A stretch of DNA of 36,445 bases from a bacterium (GTDB lineage Bacteria; Actinomycetota; Acidimicrobiia; Spongiisociales; Spongiisociaceae): positions 1-36,445 of the forward strand of contig JAPPGU010000008.1 of the NCBI GenBank assembly GCA_028821265.1, given 5' to 3'. The notes under the pieces were generated by a model, which did no database searches, was not told the origin of the DNA, and was given only the letters and a program-made list of their open reading frames with translations. Positions within the stretch are counted from its first letter, which is position 1, and every line of letters begins with the position of its first letter. Both the position numbers and the translations under genes were made by a program. Below, piece by piece: positions 9,775-34,897 of the stretch.

Positions 9775-9890
9775 TAGCGGCACGGCGACAACCGTGGACG
9801 ACTGACACCTCCAGGAACGGGCCATCCGCCGGCTTGCTCCCGGCGCTCCTATACAATGTCGGGGCCAACCAGATGGTTGAGGAGGCAGAC

Positions 9891-10655
9891 GTGTGTTTCG
9901 ACCAGGACTCCGCTCCTCCCATTCCCAGGGGCGACCGGGAGGCACACGGTCGCGATCTGGTGCTGACCGCTCGGGACGGCAACCGCTTGTCCGCATTCGG
10001 GGCCACCGGAGCCACGCCGTCGACGGCCGCGGTGGTGGTCCTGCCAGACGTGCGGGGCCTGTTCCGTTTCTACAAGCAGTTGGCCCTCCTGACGGCCCAC
10101 GCCGGCCACGACGCCGTCGCCATCGACTACTTCGGACGCACCGCCGGGCTCGGCGAGCGACCCCACGAGTGGGACTTCTGGCCCCATGTCCATGACACCA
10201 CCTTCGCCGGCATCCGGGACGACGTGGCCGCAGCCGTCTCCCATCTCCGGGCATCCGACCCGGACCGCGCCGTCTTCACCATGGGGTTCTGCTTCGGCGG
10301 ATCCGCTTCCTGGCACCAGGCCGCCAACGGCCTCGCCCTATCCGGTGCCATCGGCTTCTACGGCAGACCCCGCCGCCCGGAGGAGACGGCCGGGGCCATC
10401 GACCGGGTGGCGGGCATGGCCTGCCCGATACTCGCCCTGATGGGCGGAGATGATCCCAGCATCCCGCTCCAAGAAGTGAAGGGGTTCGAAGCCGCGCTGG
10501 CGGGAGCCGGCGTCCCCCACGAGGTCGTGGTATACCCCGGCGCCCCACACTCGTTCTTCGACCGCCGCTACGCCGAGTTCACGGAAGACTCGATCGACGC
10601 CTGGGCGCGGGTACTGGCCTTCATCGCCGCCAATTCATCCCGAGATGGGAGGTAG
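9891..10655 (+). CDS. Dienelactone hydrolase family protein
   Basis: 254 residues from GTG 9891, which is preceded by a near-perfect GAGGAGG site at 5 nt; ATG 9873 is in frame but worse placed. It is an alpha/beta hydrolase: VVVLPDVRGLFRFYKQLA after the first strands, nucleophile elbow GFCFGG with Cys as nucleophile, LMGGDDPSIP with the acid, and YPGAPHSFFDRR with the His. Cys-Asp-His is the triad of dienelactone hydrolases, which open enol-lactones in chlorocatechol pathways, but many family members act on other esters or lactones. The ABC exporter ATPase gene begins 3 bp after the stop, so these three genes probably form one transcript. Cytoplasmic; no signal peptide. Confidence 0.9.
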   Translation: MCFDQDSAPPIPRGDREAHGRDLVLTARDGNRLSAFGATGATPSTAAVVVLPDVRGLFRFYKQLALLTAHAGHDAVAIDYFGRTAGLGERPHEWDFWPHVHDTTFAGIRDDVAAAVSHLRASDPDRAVFTMGFCFGGSASWHQAANGLALSGAIGFYGRPRRPEETAGAIDRVAGMACPILALMGGDDPSIPLQEVKGFEAALAGAGVPHEVVVYPGAPHSFFDRRYAEFTEDSIDAWARVLAFIAANSSRDGR

Positions 10656-21779: not shown

Positions 21780-21806
21780 CTGTCAGCGCGCCTAAGGACC
21801 TGACAG
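21780..21806 (+). terminator. Hairpin downstream of pncB
   Basis: CTGTCAG (21780-21786) and CTGACAG (21800-21806) form a perfect 7-bp stem with a 13-nt loop, 57 bp after the pncB stop. No T-run follows, so an intrinsic terminator is uncertain. It also marks the left edge of repeat copy A, and could belong to that element instead, though copy B has no equivalent. Confidence 0.3.
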
Positions 21807-22125
21807 AACGGCAGCGGCGGCGAACCTGAGGATCAGAACGTCATATATGACGCCCTCTGCCTCAAGAACCGCTAGAGGGCGCAAGTCGCGAAAACCGAGC
21901 CTCCGGCCAAGGGCCCGCCCCCACCACCACCTATCCGGTTTGGAGCGTGGTCGGCCACGCCCGGCTGGCTGCCGGGAGATCGGCCCTCGCTCCATGAAGC
22001 TCTGTTCCCTTCCGCTGACCGTTCCGATCGGTTCCGTGCTGTAGGTCAGTGTCGGTGCTTGGCGCTGACCAACATATATCGGAGGTGTGCCAAGTCGACC
22101 CGTATCGGAGAGAACGCGAAATATT
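21795..22125 (-). repeat. Dispersed structured repeat, copy A (full length)
   Basis: About 330 bp in the gap between pncB and the convergent MurF-like gene. Read on the minus strand it aligns over nearly its whole length with copy B (29380-29705) and in part with copy C (34675-34840). Shared blocks include TTTCGCGTTCTCT, GCCAAGCACC, GGGAACA, GGAGCG, GGCCGACCACGCTCC, GGTGGTGGTGGGGG, TTTTCGCGACTTGCG, TTCTTGAGGC and CTCAGGTTCGCCGC. It contains hairpin 1 (22015-22020 with 22044-22049), hairpin 2 (21942-21947 with 21988-21993, enclosing 21960-21965 with 21971-21976) and the perfect palindrome CGTCATATATGACG (21839-21852). Indels relative to B are not multiples of three, so it is not coding. Confidence 0.75.
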
Positions 22126-29244: not shown

Positions 29245-29379
29245 CCGGTTCCGGATGTGCAGATGGATGCGGCACCATCGCAACGACAGCCCGGCGGCTG
29301 CGTTCCGTATCACGCCCGCAGGAAGCGCGCCGGACGGCCTATCGCATGACGACTTTGGACTGGTCTATCGGGCAGTTCC

Positions 29380-29705
29380 AATCGCTTTTTCGCGTTCTCT
29401 TGGAAGGGTCAAACTATGTCACACCCTCGAGATACGTTGTCCATTGCCAAGCACCTACCGGCCGATGATGCAAGACCGATTCGGCTAGGCCGGACAGAGG
29501 GAACACAGGGTTTCGTGGAGCGGGGCCGCATCCCGGCAGCAGGCCGGGCATGGCCGACCACGCTCCCACCCAGGACAGGTGGTGGTGGGGGAGGGCCCGG
29601 TGCACCGATTTTCGCGACTTGCGGCATCCTCGGGATTCTTGAGGCTGACAGCGCCATATGTGACGCCCTGGACCTGAGGTTCGCCGCATACGGACGGCTT
29701 CGAGG
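29380..29705 (+). repeat. Dispersed structured repeat, copy B (full length)
   Basis: Fills most of the 474-bp gap between the PH-like protein gene and the SLH protein gene; the 147 bp before it (29233-29379) show nothing recognisable. It lies in the opposite orientation to copies A and C. It has hairpin 1 (CCGGCC 29458-29463 with GGCCGG 29488-29493), hairpin 2 (GGAGCG 29517-29522 with CGCTCC 29561-29566, enclosing CCCGGC 29532-29537 with GCCGGG 29543-29548), the G-rich tract near 29578-29598 and CGATTTTCGCGACTTGCGG. The element ends at the stop codon of the SLH protein gene. Confidence 0.75.
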
Positions 29706-29706
29706 T

Positions 29707-31836
29707 CTAACTTGTGCCGGAGGTGCTGTTGGTGAGATCGAAGGTGCTCACGCGCTCGGGATCGGGGGAGTAGTGGGTGTAGGTGATCCGTCCGTAGAGG
29801 CCGGCATCTAGAGCCTCCTCGAATACCGCCGCCGTCACCACCCGGCCCTCGAGCAGGAACCTGTCCCTACCCGTATAGCTGATGGCCCTGGGCGTCGGAT
29901 CACCCACCACTATCTGATTGCGGAGGGTGTCGGCGACGCGGATGACAACGCCCAGGCCGGACGCATCGTTGCGCTCCGGCCTCGCCCAGAAGTGCCGGGC
30001 GGAGACGGGTGCCAGATCCGAGCCGGCCAGCCGGGCCGTTACGGTTTCGGCGGCCGCGTCCGCGCTGGTCCAGAGGTAGCGCAGAGTCGCGATACCCCTC
30101 TGATCGGTCGGTCTGGACACCGCCGTACTCCCTATTCCGTCCGGATCGTCGGATGTGAAGTCGATCCGGGCGTCTGGTACCGGAGTGCCGTACTGATCGG
30201 TTAGCGAAGCCCTGATCAGGTTGGTGGGACCGGGCGCCGACTTCGGCAGCGTGTGGTACCGCACCGTCTGTGCCAGCCGGAGGGTGGCGATCCGCGCCGC
30301 CGCGTCGGACCATGTAAACCAGGCGTCCCTGGACTCGACGGCATCGTGGTTGACCACGCCTGGTGTGGTCCGGTCCAAGACATCGAGAAAGCCGGCATCC
30401 ACGTCCAGATCCATCCTGACGGTGTCACCGACCCGTGCCGAGCTGGGATCGCTACCCGTGAACGACAGCTCCACCCTCCCCTTGTCATCCGTTAGATAAG
30501 TCCTGACTACCTTCCGTTGCCGGATCCCGTTGATCTCGAAGGTGGTACTCACCTGAACACGCACCCCCTGGTCCTCCACTGCCTGGCCATCCTCATCCAC
30601 CAACCGGACCGTGACCTCTATGGTCTCGCCCATCGGAGCCACGATGGCGGTGGGAGGTAGATCGTCCAGGACACCCACGGCGACAGCACGCTTCCACACG
30701 GACACTCGAACCATGTCGCTCGGAACACCGCCGAAGACGAATGTGTCACCGGCGGAGCCGGTCCATGCCCAGAACGCCAAATGATCGGTGGGCTGGAGAA
30801 CGGCCAGCAGATTGCCACGATCGTCGAGCCGCTGGTCGAGCGGGTCGATCCTGCACACCAACTCACCGAACACCGCCTCCACGTTGTCGACGCAGAGGCC
30901 GTCGCTGTCGAAGGAGGTCAAGGGTCTGGACAGTGGCGTAGTGAACATGTCCACGTGTCCGTGTGCGACCGGCCGGCGATTGCTGTCCCGCACCGACACG
31001 TGCACGATCAGGGTGTCGCCCGAGGACACCCGATCGGCCGCGGCGTACATGGTCACGCCGGCAGGCCGGGCATTGGTGTGCGCCAGCATCCGGGCGATGA
31101 AGACAGCCATCTGCGCTCGCGTCACGATCGAGGAAGGCGAGAAGGTGGTCGCCGAAGTACCGGACGTCACCCCCATCTCGAACAGGACCCGGACAGCGTG
31201 GCTCGCGTTCTCGGTGAGGTGGCCGATGTCCGAGAAGATGGTGTCGTCCGGTGTGACGCCACGGGCGCTGACCCCACCCGGCCCGACGGCCGAATGGCGG
31301 AGGAACCGATGCAGTAACAACGCCATCAGGCTGCGGTTGACGAGGGAGTTGGGCGAGAAGGTGGTGGCCGAGGTACCGCGTGTTATACCCAGGCTCGCCA
31401 GCTGGTTGATCGCGTCCTGAGCCGATGGCCGGAGGCCCCCGATGTCCTGGAAGCCTTGATCGACCGGTGGGCTCAGGTCGACCCCGGCAAGGGGCGCGGC
31501 ATTTACCAGGAACAACGCCATCTGCCAACGGGTGACGGGCGAATTCGGCGTGAAGATGTTCGGCGCCGTCCCCTGTGTGATGCCGTAGTAGGCCAGGCAG
31601 TCTATGGCGGATTCGGCGAACAGGCCGAGCGTGTCCAGGAACCCGGCCGACTTGGTTGCGGCTCCGGTACAGGCTGTCCCGGCGGGCAGGTGGTCGGCGA
31701 CGCCGTCTGTTGCCCGGGCAGGAACGGGACCGAAGGCGGTCGCGGAGGCGATCAGCGCTCCCGCAAGTAGCGCCGCAACGGTGCGCCGGCCGGGCCCGGT
31801 CGCCCTTCCTCCCGCTACCTCGACCCGCAATTCCAA
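29707..31836 (-). CDS. Secreted surface protein with three SLH domains and Ig-like repeats
   Basis: 709 residues. A signal peptide with Arg-rich start and hydrophobic core (AALLAGALIASATAFG, about 20-36) ends in an ARA-type cleavage site. Three S-layer-homology domains follow (about 70-115, 120-170, 190-243), each with a GITxGT...FxPNSxVTRxxMA pattern that normally anchors proteins to cell-wall polysaccharide. The rest is beta-rich, with at least two invasin/Big_1-like segments (IEVTVRLVDEDGQAVEDQGV; RASLTDQYGTPVPDARIDF). It is probably a cell-surface or S-layer-associated protein. The start is TTG 31836, with GAGGA 7 nt upstream; no ATG or GTG is better placed. Confidence 0.88.
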   Translation of the reverse strand: MELRVEVAGGRATGPGRRTVAALLAGALIASATAFGPVPARATDGVADHLPAGTACTGAATKSAGFLDTLGLFAESAIDCLAYYGITQGTAPNIFTPNSPVTRWQMALFLVNAAPLAGVDLSPPVDQGFQDIGGLRPSAQDAINQLASLGITRGTSATTFSPNSLVNRSLMALLLHRFLRHSAVGPGGVSARGVTPDDTIFSDIGHLTENASHAVRVLFEMGVTSGTSATTFSPSSIVTRAQMAVFIARMLAHTNARPAGVTMYAAADRVSSGDTLIVHVSVRDSNRRPVAHGHVDMFTTPLSRPLTSFDSDGLCVDNVEAVFGELVCRIDPLDQRLDDRGNLLAVLQPTDHLAFWAWTGSAGDTFVFGGVPSDMVRVSVWKRAVAVGVLDDLPPTAIVAPMGETIEVTVRLVDEDGQAVEDQGVRVQVSTTFEINGIRQRKVVRTYLTDDKGRVELSFTGSDPSSARVGDTVRMDLDVDAGFLDVLDRTTPGVVNHDAVESRDAWFTWSDAAARIATLRLAQTVRYHTLPKSAPGPTNLIRASLTDQYGTPVPDARIDFTSDDPDGIGSTAVSRPTDQRGIATLRYLWTSADAAAETVTARLAGSDLAPVSARHFWARPERNDASGLGVVIRVADTLRNQIVVGDPTPRAISYTGRDRFLLEGRVVTAAVFEEALDAGLYGRITYTHYSPDPERVSTFDLTNSTSGTS

Positions 31837-34203: not shown

Positions 34204-34668
34204 TCAGACCCCGCCGCCGAACGCCAACTGGCGCCAGGCCTCGAACAGGACGATCGCGACCGCATTGGAGAGGTTGAGGCTCCTGCGATCCGGCAGCATC
34301 GGGATCCGGAGGGTCTCGGTCACTCCGTCGTGGCCCAGGATGCGCCCGCCCAGCCCGACGCTCTCCGGACCGAACAGCAAGCCGTCCCCCTGCCGATAGG
34401 CCACGTCGGAGTACCGCTTCCGGCCGCCTCCCGACATGGCGAACAGTCGTGCCGGCCCGGCCGCCTCCAGGTATGCCTCGAAGTCGGCGTGTTCCATGAC
34501 GTTCGCAAACTCGTGGTAATCGAGCCCGGCCCGCCTCAGTCGGGTGTCATCCATGGAGAACCCCAGCGGGTGGACCAGATGCAGGTCGGCGCCGGTGTTG
34601 GCGCACAGACGGATGATGTTGCCGGTGTTGGGCGGTATCTCGGGCCGGTAGAGCACTACCCGGAACAT
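34204..34668 (-). CDS. trmL: tRNA (cytidine/uridine-34 2'-O)-methyltransferase
   Basis: 154 residues, the normal length for this SPOUT-class enzyme. VVLYRPEIPPNTGNIIRLC at the start, HLVHPLGF, LLFGPESVGLGG and the C-terminal LNLSNAVAIVLFEAWRQL build the trefoil knot that binds S-adenosylmethionine. It methylates the wobble ribose of certain leucine tRNAs. ATG 34668 is chosen from family length; a longer open frame upstream to 34875 would be translated from repeat copy C and is not conserved. Ribosome site weak (AGGA, 9 nt). Confidence 0.93.
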   Translation of the reverse strand: MFRVVLYRPEIPPNTGNIIRLCANTGADLHLVHPLGFSMDDTRLRRAGLDYHEFANVMEHADFEAYLEAAGPARLFAMSGGGRKRYSDVAYRQGDGLLFGPESVGLGGRILGHDGVTETLRIPMLPDRRSLNLSNAVAIVLFEAWRQLAFGGGV

Positions 34669-34674
34669 GCCCGG

Positions 34675-34840
34675 GGTCCTGGTCTCAAGAGAACGCGAAA
34701 ATCGCGCCGAGCGGGCTTCAATCGGCTGTTCGCTCCATGAGCCGTGTGTTCCCTCTAGCCGGCCGATCCGATCGGTAATGGCATCATCGGCCGGTGTAGG
34801 TGCTTGGTGACAGGCAACGTATGGCGGGGGTGTGACACAT
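34675..34840 (-). repeat. Dispersed structured repeat, copy C (shortened), upstream of trmL
   Basis: Same orientation as copy A. It keeps the 5' half (GTGTCACACCC, ATACGTTG, CCAAGCACCTAC, GGCCGATGATGC, GAGGGAACACA) and the distal CGATTTTCGCG plus TTCTTGAG, but has lost most of the centre. Hairpin 1 is a 9-bp stem (CCGGCCGA 34759-34766 with TCGGCCGG 34787-34794, extended by one pair). Hairpin 2 survives as GAGCG/CGCTC (34709-34713 with 34731-34735) without the inner stem. It ends about 7 bp before the trmL ATG, so it forms the trmL leader if transcription starts upstream. Confidence 0.7.
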
Positions 34841-34897
34841 CCGGCCCTTCCCCTCCGATCCCGGTCGGCGTTCATCGCTCGCCACTACCAGTCAGGG

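Follow-up and report, generated by a model that had tools for sequence, protein, structure and literature searches.

A dispersed intergenic repeat of uncultured Acidimicrobiia is probably a multigene family for a structured, non-coding RNA

The repeat described here is probably a family of genes, for the most part passed on vertically, that specify a structured non-coding RNA of ~185 nt; this RNA is itself probably self-dimerising, as judged from sequence comparison and modelling. It was followed up from a window of 36,445 nucleotides (the whole stretch of DNA that was analyzed), in which an earlier note had pointed to an undescribed dispersed repeat and had seen two possibilities for it, a small-RNA family and a mobile repeat of the non-autonomous kind. 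The small-RNA reading was strengthened by covariation, a promoter-like block, a terminator-like hairpin and sequence constraint; the mobile repeat fitted poorly as the sole explanation. By all comparisons made here, the RNA is undescribed so far, comes from an uncultured Acidimicrobiia lineage, and matches nothing in the RNA library searched.

Copies in the window were compared by blastn against the own genome (G000), using copy B (29370-29710) as the query, which returned 56 places at E <= 10. Copies A and B were aligned over about 300 bp with 73% identity (E 3.1e-37) in opposite orientation, and copy C was matched to B in part (121 bases, 78% identity, E 1.2e-17), which establishes the repeat as real. 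Copies A and C lie on the minus strand and B on the plus strand, so that the alignment confirmed the orientations first noted. A and B are near-complete, and C is truncated. The earlier note had the conserved blocks keeping their order and spacing in all three copies; blocks, order and orientation agreed with this description in A and B but not in C, in which the GGCCGACCACGCTCC block, the GGTGGTGG block and the terminator hairpin are absent. Read from its conserved 5' part, C continues across P2 as far as GGAGCG, where the sequence passes abruptly into GATTTTCGCGTTCTC; C also holds a 16-base piece with TTTTCGCGTTCTC, a motif found upstream of the RNA in B and downstream of it in C. The count of three copies was right for the window, with C truncated, but the genome holds about 55, as 59 matches at E <= 1 and 55 at E <= 0.1 were obtained with a covariance model of the RNA (R1).

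The unit, originally given as about 330 bp, proved to be a repeat of composite make-up, with a promoter-like block, an RNA core and a terminator-like end, and with a palindromic module in A and B. Its order is a promoter-like block (TTGAA, TGTCACA, TAxxxT), the ~185-nt core, and a terminator-like hairpin with a T-tract; many type I copies carry an upstream motif, TTTTTCGCGTTCTC, before the promoter-like block. For copy A (minus strand), the promoter-like block was placed at 22068..22122 from its sequence and the alignment with other copies (TTTCGCGTTCTC at 22110-22121; TGGCACA, a variant of TGTCACA; TATGTT at 22071-22076), and the type I RNA core, with P1, P2, P3/P4, G-tract and terminator-like hairpin, at 21887..22067 (R1 E 1.0e-36, all 183 model positions). 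For copy B (plus strand), the upstream motif TTTTTCGCGTTCTC is at 29386..29399, the promoter-like block at 29408..29438 (a poor -35 around 29410-29415, TGTCACA at 29417-29423, TACGTT at 29433-29438, read against the consensus of 45 own copies), and the type I core at 29442..29616 (R1 E 5.8e-36). For copy C (minus strand), a promoter-like block was recognized by sequence at 34814..34850 (TGTCACA 34831-34837, TACGTT 34816-34821), followed by a truncated type I RNA at 34687..34812, in which the 5' part and P2 are kept, the 3' half, G-tract and terminator hairpin are lost, and the end is formed by GATTTTCGCGTTCTC; its R1 match spans 34650-34812 (E 2.5e-11).

The promoter-like consensus of 45 own copies was aagGGgttGaA..TGTCACAccCcCg.taTA.gtTGcc, and it was similar in three species. 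Among 47 copies that were measured, out of 52, CACC follows TGTCACA at a distance of 35 nt in 26 copies and of 37-38 nt in another 10. A generic sigma-70 score was moderately above that of shuffled sequence (7.4 vs. 5.9). Motif TTTTCGCGTTCTC, the evidence for the upstream motif of B, had 33 exact sites in G000 vs. 0 for a reversed control. Examples in the window are 29386-29399 and 34689-34701. At many sites the motif closes a type II/III copy at its 3' end or immediately precedes the promoter block of a type I copy, and at least one site (L201) shows no RNA copy. In A and B the RNA is followed by a separate palindromic module (TTCTTGAGGC...), at 21822..21870 on the minus strand and 29634..29682 on the plus strand, the two matching each other; by eye, such a module follows about half of the type I copies. 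As a side observation, the module (TTCTTGAGGCAGAGGGCGTCATATATGACGCCCTGAGCCTCAGGTTC and relatives) stands in tandem after many type I copies and also alone elsewhere, and makes up a second repeat family (window 29634-29682 and 21822-21870; L005, L008, L034, L042). By eye, the copies of G000 fall into three sub-types: the 30 strongest R1 matches (E <= 1.3e-24) are type I, type II carries ACCGTAAGCACC and the loop GACGTC, and type III carries AGTCACAAACACC together with GGTGGTGGCTGG.

The predicted core fold consists of a long-range helix P1 (CACC with a near-invariant G-tract), a hairpin P2, and P3/P4. In copy B, the 5' strand of P1 (29445..29455; TGCC 29445-29448, CACC 29452-29455) would pair with the G-tract strand, its 3' partner, GGTGGTGGTGGGGGAGGG at 29578..29595. 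P2 occupies 29458..29493, P3 (TGGAGCG / CGCTCCC) encloses P4 (CCCGGC/GCCGGG) at 29516..29567 with the outermost P3 pair not formed in B, and the terminator-like hairpin with its T-tract (CGGTGCACCG ATTTTCGCG) lies at 29598..29616 and is shorter than in most copies. The pattern GGnGGnGGn(1-3)GGGGn(1-4)GG of the G-tract was found in 135/136 aligned copies vs. a mean of 1.02/136 after letter shuffling.

This structure, which is supported as a structured RNA with covariation beyond chance, goes back to an RNAalifold proposal from 29 type I copies aligned by MAFFT without structure, comprising 5' CGCC/CACC with a G-rich strand, P2, and P3 with an inner helix. The version that was tested was written by hand; it includes the terminator hairpin as well and has another P4. 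Across the 29 copies, 92.7% of cells were paired and double changes were present in 11/35 pairs; covariation was 0.107 vs. 0.089 ± 0.005 shuffled (0/500), and 0.021-0.049 when slid. The covariance model R1, built from the hand-written structure, gave 116 matches (114 distinct) from 99 loci in six genomes. Covariation in this 116-row alignment, which is fitted to the model, was 0.276; shuffles gave 0.119 ± 0.004, and slid versions no more than 0.053. Double changes were seen in 26/35 pairs; because the alignment is fitted to the structure these counts lean in its favour, and the shuffles ignore relatedness. The two parts of P1 were paired in 95.6% and 98.5% of cells (116 rows), and the terminator-like hairpin (helix 6) covaried across copies with 82.0% of cells paired. 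Columns 5/291 pair in the fitted alignment as GC 49, AU 30, GU 25 and CG 1, with 8 unpaired. Read from the sequences, the P1 strands vary by sub-type in ways by which pairing can be kept (CGCC with GGCG, AGTC with GGCT). An anchor-based table of P1 (128/136 rows) was not counted, as its type III rows appear to be out of register, with CACC set against GGAG in 22 of them.

Individual copies folded better than shuffled sequence by only some two standard deviations (z -1.88, -2.12). The minimum-energy fold of one copy (L008) contained P2, with P1 and P3 absent, and that of another (L037) contained P2, a P3 and part of P1. The RNAalifold covariation term was near zero, giving little bonus on alignment A1 (-0.47) and being slightly unfavourable on A2 (+0.24). 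On the distant copies of A2, RNAalifold kept four P2 pairs only and paired the P1 strand elsewhere, and so gives little support alone.

The loop of P2 is self-complementary in most copies. From the 136 aligned copies, 127 distinct P2 loops were taken (loops below 6 bases were dropped), and 111 of them (87.4%) held a perfect palindrome of at least 6 bases, vs. 23.4 ± 3.7% in shuffles, which ignore relatedness. Seven other unpaired regions showed no such excess: each scored lower than its shuffled letters or exceeded them by about one standard deviation at most. The central six letters were CGATCG in 47 loops and GACGTC in 43; ten further cores occurred in 1-4 loops apiece, and the palindromes were not all at one place in the loop. 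With one sequence per cluster at 75% and at 65% identity, palindromes were retained in 64/78 and 45/57 loops, respectively, with 10 cores each and GACGTC the commonest. The 16/127 loops without a perfect palindrome of that length include B, whose loop holds CCGATTCGG (29476-29484), an interrupted form of the palindrome that reads CCGATCGG elsewhere in the family; several of the other non-palindromic loops become palindromes when G-U pairs are allowed. A palindrome in a loop is unable to pair along its whole length within one molecule, and since the loop is self-complementary in most copies, the RNA probably self-dimerises through kissing P2 loops. Loops that change and yet stay self-complementary are, in a passage on the OLE and GOLLD RNAs (PMC12286853), an argument for intermolecular bridges.

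The own genome (2.62 Mb, 87 contigs, 84.6% complete) gave 55 matches at E <= 0.001 with model R2. With R1 at E <= 0.01, 61, 63 and 59 matches were obtained from three sister species (G005, G008 and G006). In a wider R1 survey, 16/59 genomes, own included, were positive at E <= 0.01. Each of the 10 genomes belonging to the genus had 37-44 matches (with at most 44 candidates scored). Outside the genus, two g2 genomes had 21 and 9, one g3 genome had 11, three others had one marginal match each, and two g4 genomes had no R1 match at E <= 0.01. Deeper R1 runs gave 30, 25 and 15 matches (G010, G011 and G013, E <= 0.1). In G011, 19/25 spanned less than 80 bases, and five of these, read individually, were a short form. 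This form (L086, L101, L269, L272, L275) is about 70-76 nt long and has many copies in g3, with the same G-tract and terminator-like hairpin, and a CACC-like strand in some. When 395 genomes of the class were surveyed with R2 (seven candidates scored per genome, strict filters), 19 were positive at E <= 1e-4, in 4/184 genera (g1, g2, g3 and g34). Six positive genomes belong to g34, which is of another family; two of them (G158, G282) had 18 and 31 R2 matches at E <= 0.001, with the same motif order in 18 that were read. A pattern scan of named genomes returned 79 stretches, all titled as Acidimicrobiia or Acidimicrobiaceae MAGs; one from a soil MAG (L120) was set aside as a chance match in a different sequence. 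We take these MAGs to be mostly sponge-derived, an assumption on which their titles are silent and which a passage search did not confirm. No match of B was found by distant blastn among phages or plasmids in either collection, and no exact match of one 24-base core among viral contigs.

Many copies have been inherited in place. At least 30/52 own copies had both flanks matched at same-orientation copies of G005/G006, and 3 more had one flank matched; the 52 are the 55 own matches minus three doubtful ones, and the count is a lower bound because a subset of G005/G006 copies was compared. The remaining 19/52 had no syntenic partner among the G005/G006 loci compared. Across 26 syntenic pairs picked by hand, identity was 88.3% in the RNA body, 84.6% in the last 25 bases, 79.8% in the promoter-like block and 70.8-73.4% in the flanks. 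Changes in pair cells between syntenic copies numbered 69, from the 17/23 listed pairs that were mappable to the alignment. Both sides changed with the pair kept in 11 (from 7 own copies only), one side changed with the pair kept in 26, and 32 leave one or both copies unpaired (29 one-sided and 3 two-sided changes). The syntenic copy was the nearest of all copies in 20/33 cases and not the most similar in 13/33.

Individual loci have been lost or reduced. Copy A has a syntenic copy in G006 (C9:221957-222135), and at the syntenic junction of G005 the whole intergenic stretch is missing, leaving, by our own reading, 18 bases between two stop codons, which may reflect a deletion or an ancestral empty site. 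These 18 bases (L319), CCAAGCATCGGCCGGACC, resemble the RNA start (CCAAGCA, CGGCCGG) on the strand opposite to A, which may be a chance likeness or a remnant. Copy B has a syntenic copy in G005 (C10:105248-105439), and its site in G006 holds terminator and module remnants only. This reduced site (L238, about 9860-10040) also carries an extra stretch bounded by the inverted repeat CTAGTGGTCTGTCTG/CAGACAGACCACTAG, possibly another mobile element. Copy C is full length at its syntenic sites (G005 C10:100054-100243; G006 C9:234544-234727). The missing B in G006 and the missing half of C in the window both have the appearance of deletions. Two own loci (L003 1505-1689 and L012 221-405) have identical 185-nt cores in different flanks that match different places, which suggests gene conversion or recent copying.

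These data bear directly on the reading of the repeat as a non-autonomous mobile element, MITE-like or RNA-mediated, with its machinery elsewhere, a structure serving mobility only, and old copies that drift. We consider this unlikely. Dozens of dispersed copies, copy sets that differ between genera, the presence or absence of A at one convergent junction and the two loci with identical cores and different flanks are all in its favour. As the sole explanation it fits poorly, because at least 30/52 copies are syntenic in sister species and the losses of B and C look like deletions, the G006 site of B keeping a terminator and module remnant. An RNA body more conserved than its flanks and some compensatory changes between syntenic copies also stand against it, and so does the result for ten proteins, nine of which the window encodes: none was found to have a transposase domain. 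Inspection by eye of a few sites for constant ends and target duplications showed no duplication, and TTTTCGCGTTCTC borders some copies on one side. Past mobility may have been the cause of the amplification.

Gene neighbourhoods were examined with a crude ORF caller for the 55 own matches. Copy A lies between convergent genes for nicotinate phosphoribosyltransferase and a Mur ligase, B beside a gene for an SLH/Ig-like protein, and C between NucS and SpoU-methylase genes. The protein beside B (window 29707-31836) is large, with three SLH domains and bacterial Ig-like/invasin-type domains. The next gene was convergent to the RNA in 37/52 matches with a downstream call, which, along with the hairpin and T-tract at the 3' end, would suit a DNA or RNA element of gene ends, acting as a terminator or insulator between convergent genes. 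Such a role is improbable, as it leaves unexplained a promoter-like block at a nearly fixed distance, the long-range P1, the G-tract in 135/136 copies, and the copies between tandem genes (25/48 with both neighbours called by the same caller).

A cis-regulatory leader (riboswitch or attenuator) of a downstream gene would agree with the terminator-like hairpin at the end and with the same-direction genes found after the shortened RNAs of C and of the C3 locus of G000, but it was rejected by orientation and is very improbable: only 15/52 copies were co-directional with the next called gene (the caller went wrong at least once, with the SpoU-methylase gene that follows C in the same direction), and no common downstream gene was noticed. 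At the C3 locus (L199, 2464-2800), the promoter block and shortened RNA precede a gene whose 60-aa product is hydrophobic in its C-terminal part. This protein has no Pfam family, 8 matches in G000 and 49 matches in 11/21 genomes, and in each of G006, G005 and G003 an RNA copy is followed, about 150-275 bases further on, by a member. Because few loci with the protein next to an RNA copy were noticed, it was not taken as a partner. A family of short protein-coding genes, to which the GGGA(A/T)CA linker, resembling a ribosome-binding site, and the ATG/GTG after it in many type I copies would point, has next to no likelihood and was rejected, because the spacing of conserved blocks is spread over all three phases (GGAGCG to GGTGGTGG 13/11/4; CGCTCC to GGTGGTGG 10/10/8; 28/29 type I copies measured), so that the frame shifts first noted between blocks, and the non-coding nature read from them, were borne out across type I copies.

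Known RNAs and repeats were compared next to this family. The comparison with Rfam that had been suggested was run, and gave 0 matches at gathering scores over the whole window (4227 families); at relaxed scores over three loci (type I, II and III) the best E was 1.5 and did not lie over the RNA copy. No description of the repeat was found in literature on multicopy sRNAs, repeats, Acidimicrobiia, kissing-loop RNAs and sponge MAGs. CsrB/RsmZ are protein-sponge RNAs, with short GGA motifs in unpaired parts and the idea of high dosage. The family shares short unpaired GGA motifs with them, but CsrA (PF02599) had no match in the 6 genomes searched, while the control search found it in 3/14 known genomes, which makes a CsrA sponge unlikely. 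ERIC, REP and STAR are interspersed repeats with many dispersed intergenic copies, some of foldable structure, in inconsistent orientation to their neighbours. Mobile/repeat candidates such as MRSC-65-2 (PMC11109978) are alike in these respects. Unlike these repeats, many copies here are syntenic in sister species, the RNA is constrained, a promoter-like block and a terminator-like end are present, and no transposase turned up in the few genes examined.

Sibling or multicopy sRNAs (LhrC of Listeria, the streptococcal csRNAs, SmelA075/A099) resemble the present family in having several separate, partly redundant genes per genome, and Qrr is another family of this kind. The csRNAs are counted as 'as many as six' in a passage of PMC4211561, and the SmelA075/A099 family is given 'several copies per genome' in one of PMC3927594. 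Unlike the sibling sRNAs in those passages, about 55-63 copies are present per genome here, with a core closed by a long-range helix. Where a multicopy sRNA is defined by at least two related sRNA genes at separate loci, the copies fall within the definition as putatively expressed sRNAs. The homo-oligomers OLE, GOLLD and ROOL are likewise structured bacterial RNAs, and in OLE and GOLLD, by the passage cited above (PMC12286853), loops keep their self-complementarity as the sequence changes. Those RNAs are described there as large, unlike the about 185 nt and dozens of gene copies found here, and the oligomer is putative in the present case.

The preferred reading is a mostly vertically inherited family of RNA genes. 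Computation supports the copies, the covarying structure, the lack of a conserved frame, the synteny, the constraint and the loop palindrome, and transcription, termination, dimerisation and action in trans are what we infer. The family would work as follows. RNA polymerase would read a putative own promoter, and an intrinsic terminator would end the transcript. About 55 genes would be spread over intergenic regions, the majority pointing at the 3' end of the gene that follows. Inheritance in place between species would be the rule, with occasional homogenisation, as at the two loci with identical cores. The genes would be individually dispensable, with C truncated here, B in remnants in one sister species and A absent in another. 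The core would be closed by the long-range helix between the 5' end (CACC) and the G-rich strand and would bear two arms; through the P2 arm, whose loop is self-complementary in most copies, two RNAs would probably dimerise by kissing. Most likely this would be an abundant RNA acting in trans, with its dose supplied by many genes, via the near-invariant G-tract and the GGGA(A/T)CA linker, in a protein-bound or RNA-RNA complex. As a bolder and rather doubtful extension, 55-60 separately transcribed genes per genome might supply a self-dimerising RNA whose copies pair through their palindromic loops, possibly with a G-quadruplex core, with the loop sub-types (CGATCG, GACGTC, GGCGCC and others) forming separate pairing groups of an RNA network or scaffold and the dose set by gene number.

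The covariance models make the RNA searchable in other genomes and in transcriptomes, and a loop that changes its letters and yet stays self-complementary makes RNA-RNA dimerisation directly testable. A multicopy intergenic motif alone is insufficient ground for filing a sequence as a selfish repeat. The multicopy bacterial sRNAs compared have a handful of genes each, and here there are dozens, many kept in place through speciation, which raises the question of why one bacterium would need so many genes of one RNA.
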